In this document: positions 1 through 54,092 of the stretch, one piece after another | Layout: each line of letters opens with the position of its first letter | How positions within the stretch are numbered: the stretch's first letter is position 1 | DNA from: Eubacteriales bacterium | Lineage (GTDB): Bacteria > Bacillota > Clostridia > Lachnospirales > Lachnospiraceae | Assembly (NCBI GenBank): GCA_030536855.1 | Contig: JAUNPK010000005.1 | Coordinates: 32,111-96,110 of the forward strand | Direction of reading: 5' to 3' | DNA length: 64,000 nt | Position numbers and translations under genes: made by a program | Notes under the pieces: generated by a model | What the model was told of the DNA's origin: nothing | Seen by the model: the letters and a program-made list of their open reading frames with translations, nothing else | Database searches by the model: none

Positions 1-14
1 CGGTTACTCCATTA

Positions 15-42
15 TCAAAGCGCCTGCGGAATGGGGAATATC
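15..42 (+). repeat. Partial copy of the structured leader repeat
   Basis: The stretch GCCTGCGGAATGG at 22-34 is identical to the last part of the repeats at 15579-15684 and 34299-34404 and, as in those copies, sits directly before a start codon. Only the 3' end is recognisable; the rest is diverged or lies outside the window. Confidence 0.45.
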
Positions 43-2094: not shown

Positions 2095-3162
2095 ATGGCA
2101 AAATCAAATAATAAAAAAATGAGATTAAAGCCCCTACCTGTTGCTATAATGGTAATTCTTGCTGTGGTTATTATAGTTGCTTTCATAGTAGCAGAAATAC
2201 ATAATTCACAAAAAGAGGAGGATTCAAAAAAAGCAAATGTCAGCCTCAGTGAAAAGGAACTTGTGGCAAAGGGAGAAGTTAATGTTAATATTCAGAATGA
2301 TGCAGTAAAGACGGAAGTGGAAATATTATTTGAGGACAGCGCAGTTCCTGTTGGAACTTCATTTAAGATTATGGCTATAGTCACTCCTTCGGATACAGAT
2401 AAAGCCATTGTGTGGACAAGCAGTAATTCGGATATTGTTGAGGTAAGCAGTGATGGAGTAATAAATGTTAAAGGCATTGGAACTGCAGCAATCACAGCTA
2501 CAGTGGGAGATGTGGCAGACGCAATTGCTATAGAGGGAATCGCTTCCGTCACATCAGGCTCCGGTAATGGCTATTCCGTATACACGGGTTCATCAGTAAA
2601 TTCTGCAGGAAACACTGCATCAGGAATCTCATCCTCAGGAGAAAGCGGAGACAGTTACAACGGCAGCACTTCCGGAAATCAGTCTTCAGGGAATACAGGC
2701 AGCAGTGGTGCAGATTCCGCTTCCGGTGGAGGAACAGGTAGCAGTGGTGCGGATTCTACTTCCGGTGGAGGAACAGGCAACAGTGGTGCAGGCTCATCCT
2801 CAGGAGGCAACTCTTCAGATACATCCAAGGGACTTACAAGTTCAGAGATATCAGGGGTATTGACAGAACAGGGATTTACGCCAAATGTTTCCAATGTGTA
2901 TGTTTATAACGATAACGGAACATATTGCGGAGAGATAGTAATCCAACCAAATGTCACTATTATTTATATAAAGCAGAGAAGTTCAGGGTTTGATTCAAAG
3001 ATACAAAGTGTTCTTAAGGAACTTCTTCCCACAGAATATAACCAGGTATGGAATAATTACCTGTCAGCTACAACAGATAGGACATTTACCGTGGAGAACA
3101 GAAAGGTAAGACTTGTTACTGCAGGAAAGGGCGGACATTCTCAAATTGTCATATACAATTAA
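2095..3162 (+). CDS. Membrane-anchored surface protein with bacterial Ig-like (BIG2) domain
   Basis: A 355-residue exported protein. Residues 14-35 form one N-terminal membrane anchor. Residues about 70-145 read as a BIG2-type immunoglobulin-like domain (motifs such as WTSSNSDIVEVSSDGVI and KGIGTAAITA). A Ser/Gly linker at about 150-245 contains three near-identical repeats of GNSGADSASGG type. The last 110 residues (from SSEISGVL) form a folded alpha/beta domain that I do not recognise. The ATG at 2095 follows GGAG with normal spacing. It probably stands on the cell surface; ligand unknown. About 195 bases upstream are noncoding. Confidence 0.65.
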   Translation: MAKSNNKKMRLKPLPVAIMVILAVVIIVAFIVAEIHNSQKEEDSKKANVSLSEKELVAKGEVNVNIQNDAVKTEVEILFEDSAVPVGTSFKIMAIVTPSDTDKAIVWTSSNSDIVEVSSDGVINVKGIGTAAITATVGDVADAIAIEGIASVTSGSGNGYSVYTGSSVNSAGNTASGISSSGESGDSYNGSTSGNQSSGNTGSSGADSASGGGTGSSGADSTSGGGTGNSGAGSSSGGNSSDTSKGLTSSEISGVLTEQGFTPNVSNVYVYNDNGTYCGEIVIQPNVTIIYIKQRSSGFDSKIQSVLKELLPTEYNQVWNNYLSATTDRTFTVENRKVRLVTAGKGGHSQIVIYN

Positions 3163-14767: not shown

Positions 14768-15541
14768 ATGGAAAACAATAATTCACAAAATGATGATTTG
14801 GAAATAGATTTAGGTAAGATATTTTCATTATTATGGGATAGGATTCTTATAATAATAGTAACAGGAGTGTTGTTTGCAGCAGCGGCTTTCCTGGGGTCAA
14901 AATTTTTTATAACACCTCAATATCAATCCCAGACTAAACTGTACGTGTTAAACAGAGCTAATGACGGAACTACAACCTTAACGGACATTCAGATATCTAC
15001 ACAGCTTACTAAAGATTATCAGATTCTGGTAACAAGTACCCCGGTAATGCAGCAGGTAATTAAAAATCTTAAGCTGGATATGACTCCATCTGATTTGGCA
15101 TCTACAATAAGTGTGAGTACACCATCTGATACAAGAGTGCTACAGATTTCGGTAACCAACCCAGACCCTTACAGGGCAAAGGAAATCGTTGATGAACTTG
15201 CAAAGGTTTCAGGGGAAAGAATCTGCAGTATTATGAAAATTGAACAGGTAAATGTTATTGAGGAAGGATCTGTTGCAATTTCTCCTATATCATCAAAGAC
15301 GAAAAAGAATACTGTCATGGGAGGCGTTGCTGGAATAATTCTTGCTTGCGTGGTTGTAATAATAAAATCGTTACTTGATGATACACTTAAAACCACGGAA
15401 GATGTTGAAAAGTATCTTGAGCTGAGTACTCTGTCGGTTATTCCGCTATGTGATGAGATGGATGATGGAAGAGGAAAGAACAGAAAGAAATCAGGTTCTA
15501 AGAAAAAGAGCAAAGAATCATCAAAGAAACATGGAGCATAG
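14768..15541 (+). CDS. Polysaccharide chain-length regulator (Wzz/CpsC/YveK family)
   Basis: 257 residues with two membrane helices (about 23-43 and 177-197) flanking an extracellular Wzz domain, and a basic cytoplasmic tail of Lys/Ser. This is the membrane activator of the BY-kinase encoded next, as in CpsC-CpsD and YveK-YveL pairs controlling capsule or exopolysaccharide length. ATG at 14768 follows GGAG. The gene is separated from its kinase partner by an unusually structured 143-base spacer. Confidence 0.88.
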   Translation: MENNNSQNDDLEIDLGKIFSLLWDRILIIIVTGVLFAAAAFLGSKFFITPQYQSQTKLYVLNRANDGTTTLTDIQISTQLTKDYQILVTSTPVMQQVIKNLKLDMTPSDLASTISVSTPSDTRVLQISVTNPDPYRAKEIVDELAKVSGERICSIMKIEQVNVIEEGSVAISPISSKTKKNTVMGGVAGIILACVVVIIKSLLDDTLKTTEDVEKYLELSTLSVIPLCDEMDDGRGKNRKKSGSKKKSKESSKKHGA

Positions 15542-15577
15542 TATGAAAAATCACGCTGATGCGCTGATTTTTCATAC
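15541..15577 (+). other. Perfect hairpin at the end of the chain-length regulator gene
   Basis: GTATGAAAAATCA and its exact complement TGATTTTTCATAC enclose an 11-base loop. It starts at the last base of the stop codon. There is no terminal T-run beyond the stem, so it may be an mRNA-stabilising or weak terminating structure between cpsC and cpsD. Confidence 0.6.
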
Positions 15578-15578
15578 G

Positions 15579-15684
15579 GCTATTTGTGCCGCAGGCACCA
15601 CAAATAGCATTTATCGCAGAGTCAAATCTGATATTTGACTCGCGATTCCTTTGGCACTAAAGTGCCTGCGGAATGGAGATTAGT
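15579..15684 (+). repeat. Structured leader repeat, copy 1 (before the BY-kinase)
   Basis: This 106-base element is 94% identical (6 differences) to 34299-34404. It contains hairpin A (GCTATTTGTG / CACAAATAGC), hairpin B (GAGTCAAAT / ATTTGACTC, extended by ATCGC / GCGAT) and hairpin C (GGCACT / AGTGCC). The loop of A (CCGCAGGCAC, 15589-15598) is exactly complementary to GTGCCTGCGG at 15662-15671, next to the ribosome site. The element ends at the start codon and supplies GGAG. Confidence 0.8.
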
Positions 15685-16380
15685 ATGCAGACGATTAATA
15701 TAGAGAGATTACGAAAGCTTGATTACAGAGCTAATGAAGCTTATAAGAATTTAAGAACAAATATACAGTTGTGTGGCTCTGATGTTAAAGTTATTATGCT
15801 CACAAGCACAACACCCGGCGAGGGAAAGTCCAGCGTATCATTTAATCTGGCAGTTTCTTTGGCAGAAGCGGGGAAAAAGGTTATATTTATAGATGCTGAT
15901 TTAAGAAAGTCGGTGCTTATAGGACGTTACAAGATTAATAAGTCTGTAAAAGGGTTAACACATTTTCTGTCGGGAATTAACAAATTTGAAGAAGTAATGT
16001 ATGCAACGAATGTTGAAAACCTCAACGTGGTATTTTCAGGACCGGTTCCTCCTAATCCTACGGAGCTTCTGGGCAATAAGGTATTCAAAACATTGATTAA
16101 AGTGTTACGGGATTTATATGATTATATTATTATAGATACGCCGCCTATCGGAAGTGTAATAGACAGTGCAATAGTGGCTCAGGAATGTGACGGTGTAGCT
16201 TATGTGGTTGCTTCTAATTCTGTAAGCTACAAATATGCGCGTAAGGGATTGGAACAGTTGAAAAAAACCGGGTGCAAATTGCTGGGGGTTGTTCTTAACA
16301 AAGTAGATATGAATGACAATAAATATTACGGAAAGTATTATGGAAAATATTACGGCAAATATGGAGACAATGTAGATTAA
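15685..16380 (+). CDS. Bacterial tyrosine kinase (CpsD/CapB family)
   Basis: 231 residues. The P-loop TTPGEGKSS at 42-50 and Walker A' IFIDADLR at 67-74 are those of BY-kinases, with a DTPP motif further on. The C-terminal 20 residues hold seven tyrosines in YYGK repeats, the autophosphorylation cluster that tunes capsule or exopolysaccharide assembly. It works with the membrane activator encoded upstream. ATG at 15685 is six bases after GGAG; the ATG at 15673 lies in that site. It ends just before a long palindromic terminator. Confidence 0.9.
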   Translation: MQTINIERLRKLDYRANEAYKNLRTNIQLCGSDVKVIMLTSTTPGEGKSSVSFNLAVSLAEAGKKVIFIDADLRKSVLIGRYKINKSVKGLTHFLSGINKFEEVMYATNVENLNVVFSGPVPPNPTELLGNKVFKTLIKVLRDLYDYIIIDTPPIGSVIDSAIVAQECDGVAYVVASNSVSYKYARKGLEQLKKTGCKLLGVVLNKVDMNDNKYYGKYYGKYYGKYGDNVD

Positions 16381-16384
16381 TGAA

Positions 16385-16461
16385 AGGGGTCAGACCCCAT
16401 AAAATTTTTATAAACTATTTGGAGAAAAGTTTATAAAAATTTTATGGGGTCTGACCCCCCT
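16385..16461. terminator. Long palindrome (GGGGTCAGACCCC family), copy 1, bidirectional terminator
   Basis: Two 31-base arms (16385-16415 and 16429-16459 plus extra C) are perfect complements around a 13-base loop, beginning AGGGGTCAGACCCC and then an A/T block. It lies between two convergent genes and has T-runs in both directions. The same sequence recurs at 50650 and, in part, at 44185. Confidence 0.8.
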
Positions 16462-18294: not shown

Positions 18295-20051
<1,757 letters not shown>

Positions 20052-24372: not shown

Positions 24373-24510
24373 CTTATAGCGAGGAAGTAAACCAAGCACG
24401 AACGAAGTGAGTATTTGGTTTTAACCGAGCGTATATCGCCAAAAACATAAAGCACGAAGTGCGATGGTCGCGTAGCGAACAGTTTTGGGCGATTCGTTTA
24501 CTATAATAAA
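24373..24510. repeat. Palindrome-rich repeat block inside the right border
   Basis: This 138-base block is absent from the left copy. It contains AAACCAA / TTGGTTT, CACGAACGAAGTG-like and GCACGAAGTGC palindromes, and outer GTAAAC / GTTTAC arms. It looks like a dispersed REP or MITE-type unit that landed between the gdhA stop and its terminator. Confidence 0.5.
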
Positions 24511-24520
24511 TGATATGGAG

Positions 24521-24557
24521 AAGTCCTGGAAATGATGAATTCCCGGGGCTTTTCTTT
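24521..24557 (+). terminator. Second copy of the gdhA terminator
   Basis: Same stem as at 20006-20042, with one change in the loop. Confidence 0.7.
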
Positions 24558-24789
24558 ATGTGTTGATGAAGGATATTGAGTTTATACTCTTTGTGGAAAT
24601 ATTGTAATTTTGCAGCTAATTATTGCGGTATTACGAAAATGATGTTACAATACTTCACGTCACAAAATAGGAGATTGCAAAACGCATTTCTAACGTGGGT
24701 ACAAAGTTGTACATACCACGCAATCACATATATGGTACTAATCAGTTTCGTAATTTCCCATATGTTATAAAACAAAAAGGAGAACACTA

Positions 24790-31916: not shown

Positions 31917-32528
31917 ATGGCAGAGATAATATATCTAAAAATGGATAAACTGGTAAGAACAAGTAAGAAAGATGTGTACCTAAAGGATATCTCACAGATA
32001 GCCTGCAACAAAGACTTTATAGGTAAGATACGTGCCATAAAGGTAGCATCATTTAATAATGACGAAAAGAGAGGACGTCTGGTATTTGACATTATGGATG
32101 CATATAATTCCATTAATGAAATTGTTCCAAATGCACAGATAGAAAGTATAGGGGAGAGTGACTGCGTTATAGAGTACAAAAAAGAGGGCAGACCTCATCC
32201 GGTGCTTAATGTAATACTCATTGCAGTTGTGTGTATAATAACATTTCTTGGAAGCGCCTATGGAATAATGGCTTATAACAATGACGTGGGAACACCGGAG
32301 ATATTCAGTCAGGCATATCAGTTATTTGGAGAAGATAATATGGAAAAATATAAGGTGTTGGAAATATCCTACAGCATTGGTCTGTTGGCAGGTATTGTAG
32401 TGTTCTATGATCATTTTATGGGAAAGAGAATAACAAAGGCGCCTACTCCTCTTGAGGTGGCAATGAATCTCTACGAAAATGATGAGTGTGATGCTCTTAT
32501 AGATTCGTCGGGGTGTGAGAAAAAATGA
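31917..32528 (+). CDS. spoVAA: Stage V sporulation protein AA
   Basis: 203 residues. A cytoplasmic N-terminal domain of about 95 residues (MAEIIYLKMDKLV..., VYLKDISQI) is followed by two membrane helices (about 103-120 and 150-168). It belongs to the SpoVA set that moves Ca-dipicolinate through the inner spore membrane. Its end overlaps spoVAB by four bases. It starts the operon; I could not define a forespore promoter with confidence. Confidence 0.85.
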   Translation: MAEIIYLKMDKLVRTSKKDVYLKDISQIACNKDFIGKIRAIKVASFNNDEKRGRLVFDIMDAYNSINEIVPNAQIESIGESDCVIEYKKEGRPHPVLNVILIAVVCIITFLGSAYGIMAYNNDVGTPEIFSQAYQLFGEDNMEKYKVLEISYSIGLLAGIVVFYDHFMGKRITKAPTPLEVAMNLYENDECDALIDSSGCEKK

Positions 32529-32938: not shown

Positions 32939-32961
32939 AATTTAAGGAATGGAGGGCATAT

Positions 32962-34298: not shown

Positions 34299-34404
34299 GC
34301 TATTTGTGCCGCAGGCACCACAAATAGCTTTTACCGCAGAGCCAAATCTGACATTTGGCTCGCGATTCCTTCGGCACTAAAGTGCCTGCGGAATGGAGAT
34401 TAGT
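34299..34404 (+). repeat. Structured leader repeat, copy 2 (before spoVAD)
   Basis: 94% identical to 15579-15684. Hairpin B is GAGCCAAAT / ATTTGGCTC here: the C34342-G34358 pair replaces T-A of copy 1, a compensatory double change. Loop 34309-34318 is again complementary to 34382-34391, next to the GGAG of spoVAD. Confidence 0.8.
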
Positions 34405-44184: not shown

Positions 44185-44250
44185 TTATAAAAATTTTATA
44201 GGAACTTTATGGTAATTTTATGGGGTCTGACCCCATAAAATTTTTATTAA
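44185..44250. repeat. GGGGTCAGACCCC-family palindrome, partial copy
   Basis: A perfect 27-base palindrome with one central base (44215-44241; TTTTATGGGGTC and complement), preceded by a decayed TTATAAAAATTTTAT arm at 44185. Same sequence as the palindromes at 16385 and 50650, but the long outer stem is broken. Confidence 0.7.
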
Positions 44251-48852: not shown

Positions 48853-50643
48853 TTGAATTTAAAAGCACCAAAAGGTATAGATGTTGAGAACTGGTTTATA
48901 GAGTGCTACAGAAAATACAAGGGACACCCTTTGAAAATTCTTATAGGATTGTACAAGGGGAACTATAATAAATTTGTACTGGCAGTTATATTTTTCTTTA
49001 TCAAGCATGCGCCTGTATGGGTCCTTCCAATTGTAACAGCTAATATAATTAATGATATAACTGCGAGCTCTCCTGATACATACAGAAATATAATGATACA
49101 GGCGACCATTATGGTTTTTCTTGTTTTATTAAATATACCAATGAATTATATGTACACAAGATATAAATCCTTGGCAACCAGATATGCGGAAACAGGTTTA
49201 AGAAAGGCACTGGTCAGGAAGCTTCAACAGTTATCAATATCCTACCATAAAGAGACTCAGTCGGGCAGACTTCAATCCAAGATAATGCGAGATGTGGAGG
49301 CAGTGGAGACACTGTCTACACAGATGTTTTTAAGTATACTTAATATAGCGCTGAATATAGGTATAGCGCTGGCAGTTACAATAAAAAAGAGTATGGTTGT
49401 ATTTATATTCTTTCTGTTAACTGCACCTATAGCTGCAGTTACAATGGTCTTCTTCAGAAATGTTATGCGAAAGAGAAATACAGAGTTTCGTAAGGAAATG
49501 GAGGAGACTTCTGCCAGAGTCATGGAGATGGTAGAACTTATTCCTGTAACAAGGGCACATGCTCTTGAGGAGGAAGAGGTTTCCAAAATGAGCGGGCAGT
49601 TATTCGCTGTTGCAGAAAAGGGATATAGATTGGATATAATACAGTCCTTATTTGGTTCTGTAGGATGGGCAATATTTCAGGTGTTTCAGGTGGTATGCCT
49701 TGCATTTACAGGGTATCTGGCCTTAAGGGGCAACGTAAAACCGGGAGACATTACTTTGTATCAGAGTTATTTTGCGTCAATAGTAAGTCAGGTTTCTTCT
49801 TTAATGTCGCTTATACCAACAATAGCCAAGGGTATAGAGTCGGTGAATTCTATAGGAGAGGTGCTGTTAGAGGAAGACGTTGAGCACAATGATGGAAAGA
49901 GAACATTGGAAAAAGTCCATGGAGAATTTGTTTTTTCAAATGTTAATTTTAGATATAATAATATAGATAAGGACGTGCTCCATAATCTGAACCTTCATGT
50001 GAAGCAGGGTGAAACCATTGCCCTTGTAGGTGAGTCGGGAGCAGGAAAATCAACCATTCTTAATCTTGTCATCGGTTTTAATTTCGCTACAGGAGGAAGC
50101 GTTACAGTAGACGGTAATGACCTTAGGGAAATTGATTTGAGAAGTTATAGAAAATATCTTGCTGTTGTACCCCAGACATCAATATTATTCTCGGGAACAA
50201 TCAGAGATAATATAACATACGGTGTAGATAATGTGGATGATGAAACTCTCCACCGGGTAATAAAGGCGTCAAATCTTACTGATCTCATTGAATCTCTGCC
50301 AAATGGAATTGATACTATGGTGGGAGAACATGGCGGTAAGTTATCGGGAGGCCAGAGACAAAGAATATCTATCGCAAGAGCTTTGATAAGGAATCCTAAG
50401 ATAATTGTACTTGATGAGGCTACATCTGCATTGGACAGCATTTCTGAAAAGTTGATTCAGGAAGCACTTAATAACCTTACCAGAGACAGGACAACATTCA
50501 TCGTTGCCCATAGATTGTCTACTATCAGAGATGCAGATAAGATTGCGGTAATAGCCGACGGACATTGTGTGGAATACGGAACATATGAGGAACTCATGGA
50601 AATGAAGGGTGAGTTCTATCAGATGAAAGTTATACAATCTTAA
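48853..50643 (+). CDS. ABC exporter, fused permease and ATPase
   Basis: 596 residues: six-helix membrane domain (about 45-320) and NBD with Walker A GESGAGKST, signature LSGGQRQRIS and Walker B IIVLDEATSALD. Half-transporter of the MsbA/LmrA type. Start is TTG at 48853, eight bases after GAGG. It closes the pectin locus; whether it exports a product, a toxic by-product or is unrelated cannot be read from the sequence. Confidence 0.88.
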   Translation: MNLKAPKGIDVENWFIECYRKYKGHPLKILIGLYKGNYNKFVLAVIFFFIKHAPVWVLPIVTANIINDITASSPDTYRNIMIQATIMVFLVLLNIPMNYMYTRYKSLATRYAETGLRKALVRKLQQLSISYHKETQSGRLQSKIMRDVEAVETLSTQMFLSILNIALNIGIALAVTIKKSMVVFIFFLLTAPIAAVTMVFFRNVMRKRNTEFRKEMEETSARVMEMVELIPVTRAHALEEEEVSKMSGQLFAVAEKGYRLDIIQSLFGSVGWAIFQVFQVVCLAFTGYLALRGNVKPGDITLYQSYFASIVSQVSSLMSLIPTIAKGIESVNSIGEVLLEEDVEHNDGKRTLEKVHGEFVFSNVNFRYNNIDKDVLHNLNLHVKQGETIALVGESGAGKSTILNLVIGFNFATGGSVTVDGNDLREIDLRSYRKYLAVVPQTSILFSGTIRDNITYGVDNVDDETLHRVIKASNLTDLIESLPNGIDTMVGEHGGKLSGGQRQRISIARALIRNPKIIVLDEATSALDSISEKLIQEALNNLTRDRTTFIVAHRLSTIRDADKIAVIADGHCVEYGTYEELMEMKGEFYQMKVIQS

Positions 50644-50649
50644 TAAAAA

Positions 50650-50720
50650 GGGTCAGACCCCATAAAATTTTTATAAATTTTTTGACAAAAAGTTTATAAA
50701 AATTTTATGGGGTCTGACCC
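50650..50720. terminator. Long palindrome (GGGGTCAGACCCC family), copy 2, bidirectional terminator
   Basis: 28-base arms (50650-50677 and 50693-50720) are perfect complements with a 15-base loop; same arms as at 16385. Again placed between convergent genes. Confidence 0.8.
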
Positions 50721-50725
50721 CTCAA

Positions 50726-53857: not shown

Positions 53858-53929
53858 GTTGACACATTTGCTGACAGGTGATATATTCAACTTGTTTAGA
53901 TATAACTAAACATAATTTTAATTCTATAT

Positions 53930-54092
53930 GGTAGAGGTTGCGCGATTCAAGAGTAATCATGAGGATGCTCCTAAAGCAGAAGATTCATGAAGAAAGGGGA
54001 AAGCGCCGAAGTTGCAGTTTAGGAAGCTGCTTCTGGGCGTAAGGTTAACAGCCTTGCGACTGTCATCAACACGATGGAGGGCTACTTAGAGA
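53930..54092 (+). ncRNA. Lysine riboswitch (L-box)
   Basis: The leader has conserved L-box parts in order: GTAGAGGTTGCG, AAGAGTA, AGGGGAAAGCGCCGAAG, GGGCGTAAGG, GACTGTCATC and GGAGGGCTAC closing P1 with the 5' GTAG. It senses lysine, the end product of the pathway that dapA and dapB start. When lysine is bound the downstream terminator is expected to form. Confidence 0.93.

Follow-up and report, generated by a model that had tools for sequence, protein, structure and literature searches.

The 64,000-nucleotide stretch of bacterial DNA analyzed in this study (the window) carries two copies of a 106-base sequence on its forward strand, at 15579-15684 and 34299-34404. Each copy is directly abutted by the ATG of the following gene (15685 and 34405, respectively) and contains a GGAG six bases upstream of that ATG (15675-15678 and 34395-34398). 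The protein encoded downstream of copy 1 matches AAA_31 and is a CpsD-like ATPase, whose gene we take to be cpsD, and the gene downstream of copy 2 encodes SpoVAD. The same-strand genes upstream of the two copies match Wzz and methyltransferase families. An initial annotation had described the copies as lying within operons, ending at start codons and supplying the ribosome sites of cpsD and spoVAD, all of which agrees with our analysis. It had also placed a partial copy before the gene at position 43; positions 1-42 (+) are indeed the 3' part of a degenerate third copy, which extends upstream of the window and is cut by its edge (32038-32150 in coordinates of our contig C4).

Direct comparison of the two 106-base copies gave exactly six differing positions (15609, 15614, 15622, 15632, 15638 and 15652), the number noted earlier. 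Positions 15622 and 15638 are T and A in copy 1, C and G in copy 2, and pair in the predicted fold, so that the double change keeps one stem pair, as had been claimed. Over 12 copies of the window's own genome, this pair is among the weaker ones (C-G in seven, U-A in one, U-G in one and broken in three).

When the copies of this genome were oriented and compared, full copies were found to start further 5' than position 15579, with an extra hairpin. The 106-base stretches are real, but the unit begins upstream of the boundary first drawn: hairpin 1 of copy 1 (15541-15577, arms GTATGAAAAATC ... GATTTTTCATAC) lies outside it, and copy 2 lacks this hairpin. The predicted fold of copy 1 continues with hairpin A (15579-15608), whose loop at 15589-15598 is CCGCAGGCAC, hairpin B (15615-15644), which has a bulged A and includes the T15622-A15638 pair, and hairpin C (15645-15674). 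A strand at the 3' end, GTGCCTGCGG (15662-15671), can pair with the hairpin A loop as an alternative to hairpin C. The left direct repeat, a candidate duplicated target (ATGGAGCATAGTATG at 15531-15545), shares bases with the stop codon of the wzz-like gene and was compared with ATGGAGATTAGTATG at the right end; the right direct repeat (15673-15687) comprises the Shine-Dalgarno GGAG and the ATG of the CpsD-like gene. Copy 2 consists of hairpins A, B and C and the 3' end, with its loop at 34309-34318 and the pairing partner at 34382-34391.

Copy 1 has a predicted folding energy of -40.7 kcal/mol (z -4.3), and none of 200 shuffled sequences folded as well. The opposite strand folds even better (z -5.4) and beats all 200 shuffles. 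Since both strands fold strongly, the fold alone shows neither an RNA role nor the strand. In an Rfam scan of the window, only a lysine riboswitch elsewhere (aptamer at 53924-54092, 99.6 bits) reached the gathering score, and scans of ten relative loci gave no match over the element up to an E value of 1.

The window also contains other repeats. A 57-base repeat (19995-20051 and 24510-24566, 96% identity) is terminator-like (CCTGGAAAT..ATTCCCGGGG..TTTT) and follows two similar gene ends, and three 39-base tandem repeats occupy 2695-2811 within the ORF at 2095-3162. Another dispersed palindrome, GGGGTCAGACCCC, whose arms are AT-rich, occurs at 16385-16458, 44194-44250 and 50640-50722, with one more beside a 5'-cut copy of the element (L019); we take it to resemble REP-type palindromes.

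Occurrence of the element in bacterial genomes

Searched with BLAST, the window's own genome (G000) gave 22 matches to the element. A covariance model (R1) was built from 12 of its copies and run on 22 genomes of the genus, as the initial annotation had suggested for the wider family, and it gave matches in 11 of them, the own genome included. Many similar copies occur within single genomes: at least 32 matches each in G014 and G021, 18 in G000, 14 in G019, eight each in G018 and G020, six in G015, five in G012, four in G010 and one each in G008 and, weakly, G007. The R1 search was without a match in G001-G006, G009, G011, G013, G016 and G017.

A pattern scan of the genome_contigs data gave at least 118 stretches, at least one of which (L204) resembles a chance match. 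Among the matches listed (80 titles), the genera were Lachnospira, Eisenbergiella, Acetatifactor, Fimimorpha, Eubacterium and Clostridium sp., and other titles read Lachnospiraceae, Eubacteriaceae, Eubacteriales, Clostridia or just bacterium. A second model (R2), run with strict filters on 236 genomes of the class, recovered the own genome only (0/228 outside the family and 0/7 others inside), although genome_contigs shows the element in other genera. A pattern search of viral contigs was without a match.

Not all copies are complete. In ten copies or fragments (L010, L013, L014, L015, L017-L021 and L032), the 5' part is missing and the 3' end is retained; by eye, L018 carries similar 11-nt repeats at its two ends, and L014 and L021 have weaker ones. 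Three minimal copies (L205, L332 and L340) consist of hairpin A and the tail, without hairpin B. Five full copies (L094, L126, L202, L208 and L215) immediately follow the apparent 3' end of a further copy, a placement that may mean that Shine-Dalgarno sequences of older copies get re-targeted. In a further case, copies of different subfamilies (L107 in G021 and L129 in G019) precede the same orthologous gene, with downstream flanks that are 79% identical; either independent insertion or long retention would account for them.

Covariation within the fold

The copies share a conserved fold, composed of hairpin 1 and hairpin A with its loop paired to the 3' end, together with hairpin B in most of the copies read. 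The loop had initially been said to pair with the ten bases just before the ribosome site; CCGCAGGCAC can pair with 15662-15671, but this partner ends three bases before GGAG and is not directly adjacent to it. Across copies, the loop and the last 8-10 bases of the element co-vary, as in CCGCAGGCAC/GTGCCTGCGG, CCGCAGACGC/GCGTCTGCGG, CCTCAGACGC/GCGTCTGAGG and CCGGAGCGT/ACGCTCCGG, with further sets such as CCGAAGCGT/ACGCTTCGG, TCTGAGCGA/TCGCTCAGA, CTAAAGCGT/ACGCTTTAG and more.

For 71 distinct loop:3'-end combinations, taken from genus copies and from 80 of the 118 genome_contigs loci, the latter with tails preselected by expected 3' ends (28 copies were unparsed and seven loci of already represented genomes omitted), 91.5% of the eight pairs were standard, versus 73.7% (sd 1.7) with shuffled tails, none of 2000 shuffles reaching the observed value, and 38-42% when the strands were slid. 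The genus copies alone, with tails taken without preselection (90 of 103 copies parsed), gave 54 combinations with 89.8% paired, versus 70.2% shuffled (0/2000). The RNAalifold consensus of 31 diverse copies contains the loop:3'-end helix and not the stem of hairpin A.

Hairpin 1 is also maintained family-wide: over all 169 copies, own arms scored 10.2 in pairing versus 7.0 for shuffled arms (0/3000). A strong hairpin 1 stem is found in 117 of the 169 copies, with 81 distinct arms, in a subset chosen for a good stem. Accessibility of the Shine-Dalgarno sequence, computed by nested folding, was uninformative because the values vary with the flanking coding sequence.

Probable insertion at gene starts

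The copies do not lie at random positions or orientations. Among the 103 of 129 R1 matches that were examined in detail, an ATG lies 5-8 nt past the terminal GGAG in 92, and 91 lead into an open frame that spans 60 codons or more or runs to the end of the stretch. In the genome_contigs set (118 loci, some belonging to the genomes G014, G021 and G012), there were 120 distinct matches; a contig end truncated 8 of them, and 7 lacked a paired tail. Of the other 105, 98 had, within 45 nt, a start codon that opens an ORF of at least 50 codons, in 89 cases at an offset of 12-14. Random positions in the same DNA gave a start and ORF within 45 nt in 33% of cases, so only the exact offset, found at 3.9% of random positions, is informative. 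The initial description of a structured leader before unrelated genes holds, with real covariation, uniform sense orientation and placement at start codons.

The 3' flank of the element has a counterpart in host sequences. The motif GGAATGGAG followed by ATG occurs at 78 sites in G014, 62 in G021 and 58 in G000, versus 0 in G004 and 1 in G002 (0-3 for a reversed-pattern control); it also occurs at 47 sites in G005, a genome without a model match. A copy or fragment of the element is recognizable at about 20 of the 58 sites in the window's genome, and in G007 the motif precedes a cpsD-like gene that has no element. Within the window, GGAATGGAG is present at 32946 (C4:65056) before a start codon, without an element upstream. 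The occurrence of the motif before many genes that have no element indicates that a host motif recurs as the 3' flank of the element, be it a target, a scar or both; part of this flank may therefore be the host motif itself.

Presence and absence of the element at orthologous sites was analyzed in two close genome pairs, G014/G021 and G015/G018, by comparing twenty downstream pieces. The 20 alignments with partner stretches comprised four shared copies (L047, L104, L118 and L103), two copies partly deleted in the partner (L110 and L055), four distant partners that were not clean, and ten filled/empty pairs. The net insert in these ten pairs was 132-145 bp (by script, with mismatches allowed and the duplicated target included). 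Eight pairs had a direct repeat, of 5, 11, 20, 28, 14, 15, 7 and 9 bp with mismatches allowed; the longest values extend by similarity into hairpin 1, and by eye the clean repeats are about 10-12 bp in L101 and about 15 bp in L117. GGAG lies within the repeat in six of the eight pairs and is absent from L100, which has just a 5-bp repeat without the Shine-Dalgarno sequence, and from L120. The remaining two pairs, L111 and L087, had no overlap; L111 carries GGAAATGGGGAATA at both ends, and its partner site is rearranged.

In L123 and L117, the target deviates from the element consensus, and both ends of the copy carry the target's version. Over 102 copies, similarity between a copy's own left and own right flanks had a mean of 8.70, versus 7.32 (sd 0.15) for flanks shuffled within genomes (z 9.0, 0/5000). 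Part of the repeat length may reflect chance similarity of host gene starts to the 5' end of the element. The two window sites are likewise polymorphic: in the 220-250 bases upstream of nine cpsD-like relatives (proteins 65-97% identical) and eleven spoVAD relatives, read by eye, the element was found in 0/9 and 0/11, respectively.

Nature of the element and comparison with known systems

The comparison of sites points to a mobile element as the most likely identity of this sequence, and we regard it as very probable that it is a non-coding structured element that inserts, in sense orientation, at the Shine-Dalgarno sequence of genes, usually duplicating that site. After insertion, the gene would keep a Shine-Dalgarno sequence and start codon directly 3' of the element, and effects on its expression would be secondary. 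The fold would be preserved because a putative trans-acting enzyme recognizes the element as RNA or single-stranded DNA, and the target would be chosen by its Shine-Dalgarno sequence (AATGGAG-like), which the 3' flank of the element resembles. That the two arms of hairpin 1 change together is a point against this account, which offers no reason for it.

The nearest alternative, a possible one that we nevertheless judge unlikely, is that the element is DNA mobilized in trans by a conventional transposase, in the manner of a MITE or an IS200/IS605 derivative, with a preference for Shine-Dalgarno targets. The element is indeed short, hairpin-rich, dispersed and patchy, with direct repeats in most pairs, and Y1_Tnp genes were found in several genomes that bear it (G000, G014, G019, G021, G008 and G007), with two in the window's own genome. 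However, Y1_Tnp was not found in G018 (99% complete), nor in the less complete G015, G020, G010 and G012, and TnpB was not found in G000, G014, G018 and G021. Terminal inverted repeats, as expected of a MITE or other derivative of a DDE transposon, were not found in any of the seven copies whose ends had been mapped: the termini were identical at 0-4 of 10 positions, and inverted matches were no better than shuffles except for a weak internal match in L096 (15/300 shuffles).

RVT_1 reverse transcriptases were not found in the element-rich genomes G000, G014 and G018 (99-100% complete), which would be compatible with a very divergent reverse transcriptase or a lost source. Of the three families searched, neither Y1_Tnp, RVT_1 nor TnpB has a presence that tracks the element in the genus, and these were rejected as mobilizers. 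No recurrent partner gene was evident beside the copies among 1151 ORFs of 118 loci; seven ORF clusters present in at least four loci look, by eye and from their first residues, like housekeeping families.

The initial annotation had raised a possible translation switch. Read in this way, the element would be a cis-regulatory RNA whose hairpin A loop pairs beside the Shine-Dalgarno sequence, in competition with hairpin C, and thereby controls the translation of a regulon dispersed over the genome. Strong structural covariation, start-codon placement and sense orientation are what such a leader would show. Yet the genes downstream of the window copies are unrelated, the relatives read lack the element, insertions differ even among close relatives and mostly lie in duplicated targets, and half of the genus genomes were without a match. 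The two pairings are mutually exclusive, as proposed, but the predicted competition is lineage-specific. Copies of the window's lineage have a strong hairpin C (about -13 kcal/mol), compared with -7 and -5 for two sequences of other subfamilies, and in most of the other genomes it is weak: the 3' strand had a mean local pairing of 0.42-0.55 in G000, G008 and G015 and of 0.05-0.29 in the remaining seven genomes folded. A regulatory leader is thus improbable as the main explanation; regulation, for instance through a translation switch, may be a side effect.

About equally improbable is a process with no dedicated enzyme, in which template switching during replication between Shine-Dalgarno-like repeats copies the element among gene starts. 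AATGGAG/GTATG-like microhomology is common to element ends and targets, and the five copies that immediately follow the apparent 3' end of a further copy fit such a process, but these microhomologies are short and would be expected between any gene starts, yet across genera it is this particular fold that is conserved. It is highly improbable that the element encodes a leader peptide whose translation is coupled to the downstream gene, since the frame that runs from a left ATG or GTG towards the downstream start in several full copies has an in-frame stop in L001 and L002, is out of frame or interrupted in L004, L005 and L009, and in some copies begins GTG TAA.

If the element is a mobile structured element that targets Shine-Dalgarno sites, its mode of insertion would be a neat solution for dense bacterial genomes, in which an element must avoid breaking genes: sense insertion would be combined with duplication of the ribosome-binding site. 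The 5' leaders of many genes of gut bacteria would have been rewritten, differently in each species, which could alter expression across operons, and the intramolecular pairing of loop and end offers a clear starting point in the search for the mobilizing enzyme. No description of such an element came up among the open-licence papers searched, and the supplementary tables of a structured-RNA survey (PMC8040213) could list the motif without a function.

Like the cis-regulatory RNAs and riboswitches of Rfam, the element is a folded 5' leader whose covarying pairs lie close to the Shine-Dalgarno sequence, but in the window and ten relative loci it has no match to a curated covariance model, and no shared downstream function was seen. 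Eukaryotic SINEs and target-primed retroelements have no inverted repeats, variable direct repeats, 5'-truncated copies with an intact 3' end, a structured RNA and supposed trans-acting machinery. The element shares the first two of these features, and a structured RNA and trans-acting machinery are likewise supposed for it; its 5'-truncated copies that keep the 3' end may correspond to the third, end repeats having been seen by eye in L018 and, weaker, in L014 and L021. By contrast, it is bacterial, about 135 bp long, and without an identified promoter or reverse transcriptase, RVT_1 being absent from three element-rich genomes. Because variable direct repeats, 5' truncation and an intact 3' end form the target-primed pattern, a SINE-like mode is our boldest reading: a bacterial retroelement with a small structured RNA and a putative trans-acting reverse transcriptase or polymerase, which targets and rebuilds the Shine-Dalgarno sequence and spreads through operons with host translation intact. 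We regard this reading as speculative and rather doubtful. Copying via RNA primed at the target, a step that we propose with low confidence, is suggested by the lack of terminal inverted repeats, the variable direct repeats and the 5'-truncated copies that keep the 3' end; the truncations could reflect decay instead.

IS200/IS605 derivatives and REP elements, which can be grouped as near systems, have hairpin ends. As described in PMC4227781, IS200/IS605 derivatives and IStrons resemble the element in lacking terminal inverted repeats and in inserting in a fixed orientation beside a short target motif; IS200/IS605-type elements, by the same account, make no target duplication, whereas the element has direct repeats in 8/10 pairs, and the distribution of Y1_Tnp and TnpB also speaks against such a derivative. 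The BOX, RUP and SPRITE repeats of Streptococcus pneumoniae, as described in PMC3049150, are likewise short, structured and dispersed. BOX is modular, regarded as parasitic and co-transcribed with neighboring operons, and its mobilization is tied to terminal inverted repeats (PMC3049150). Set against that description of BOX, the element lacks terminal inverted repeats, inserts in one orientation at Shine-Dalgarno sequences, and has as its conserved core a helix between a loop and its own 3' end.
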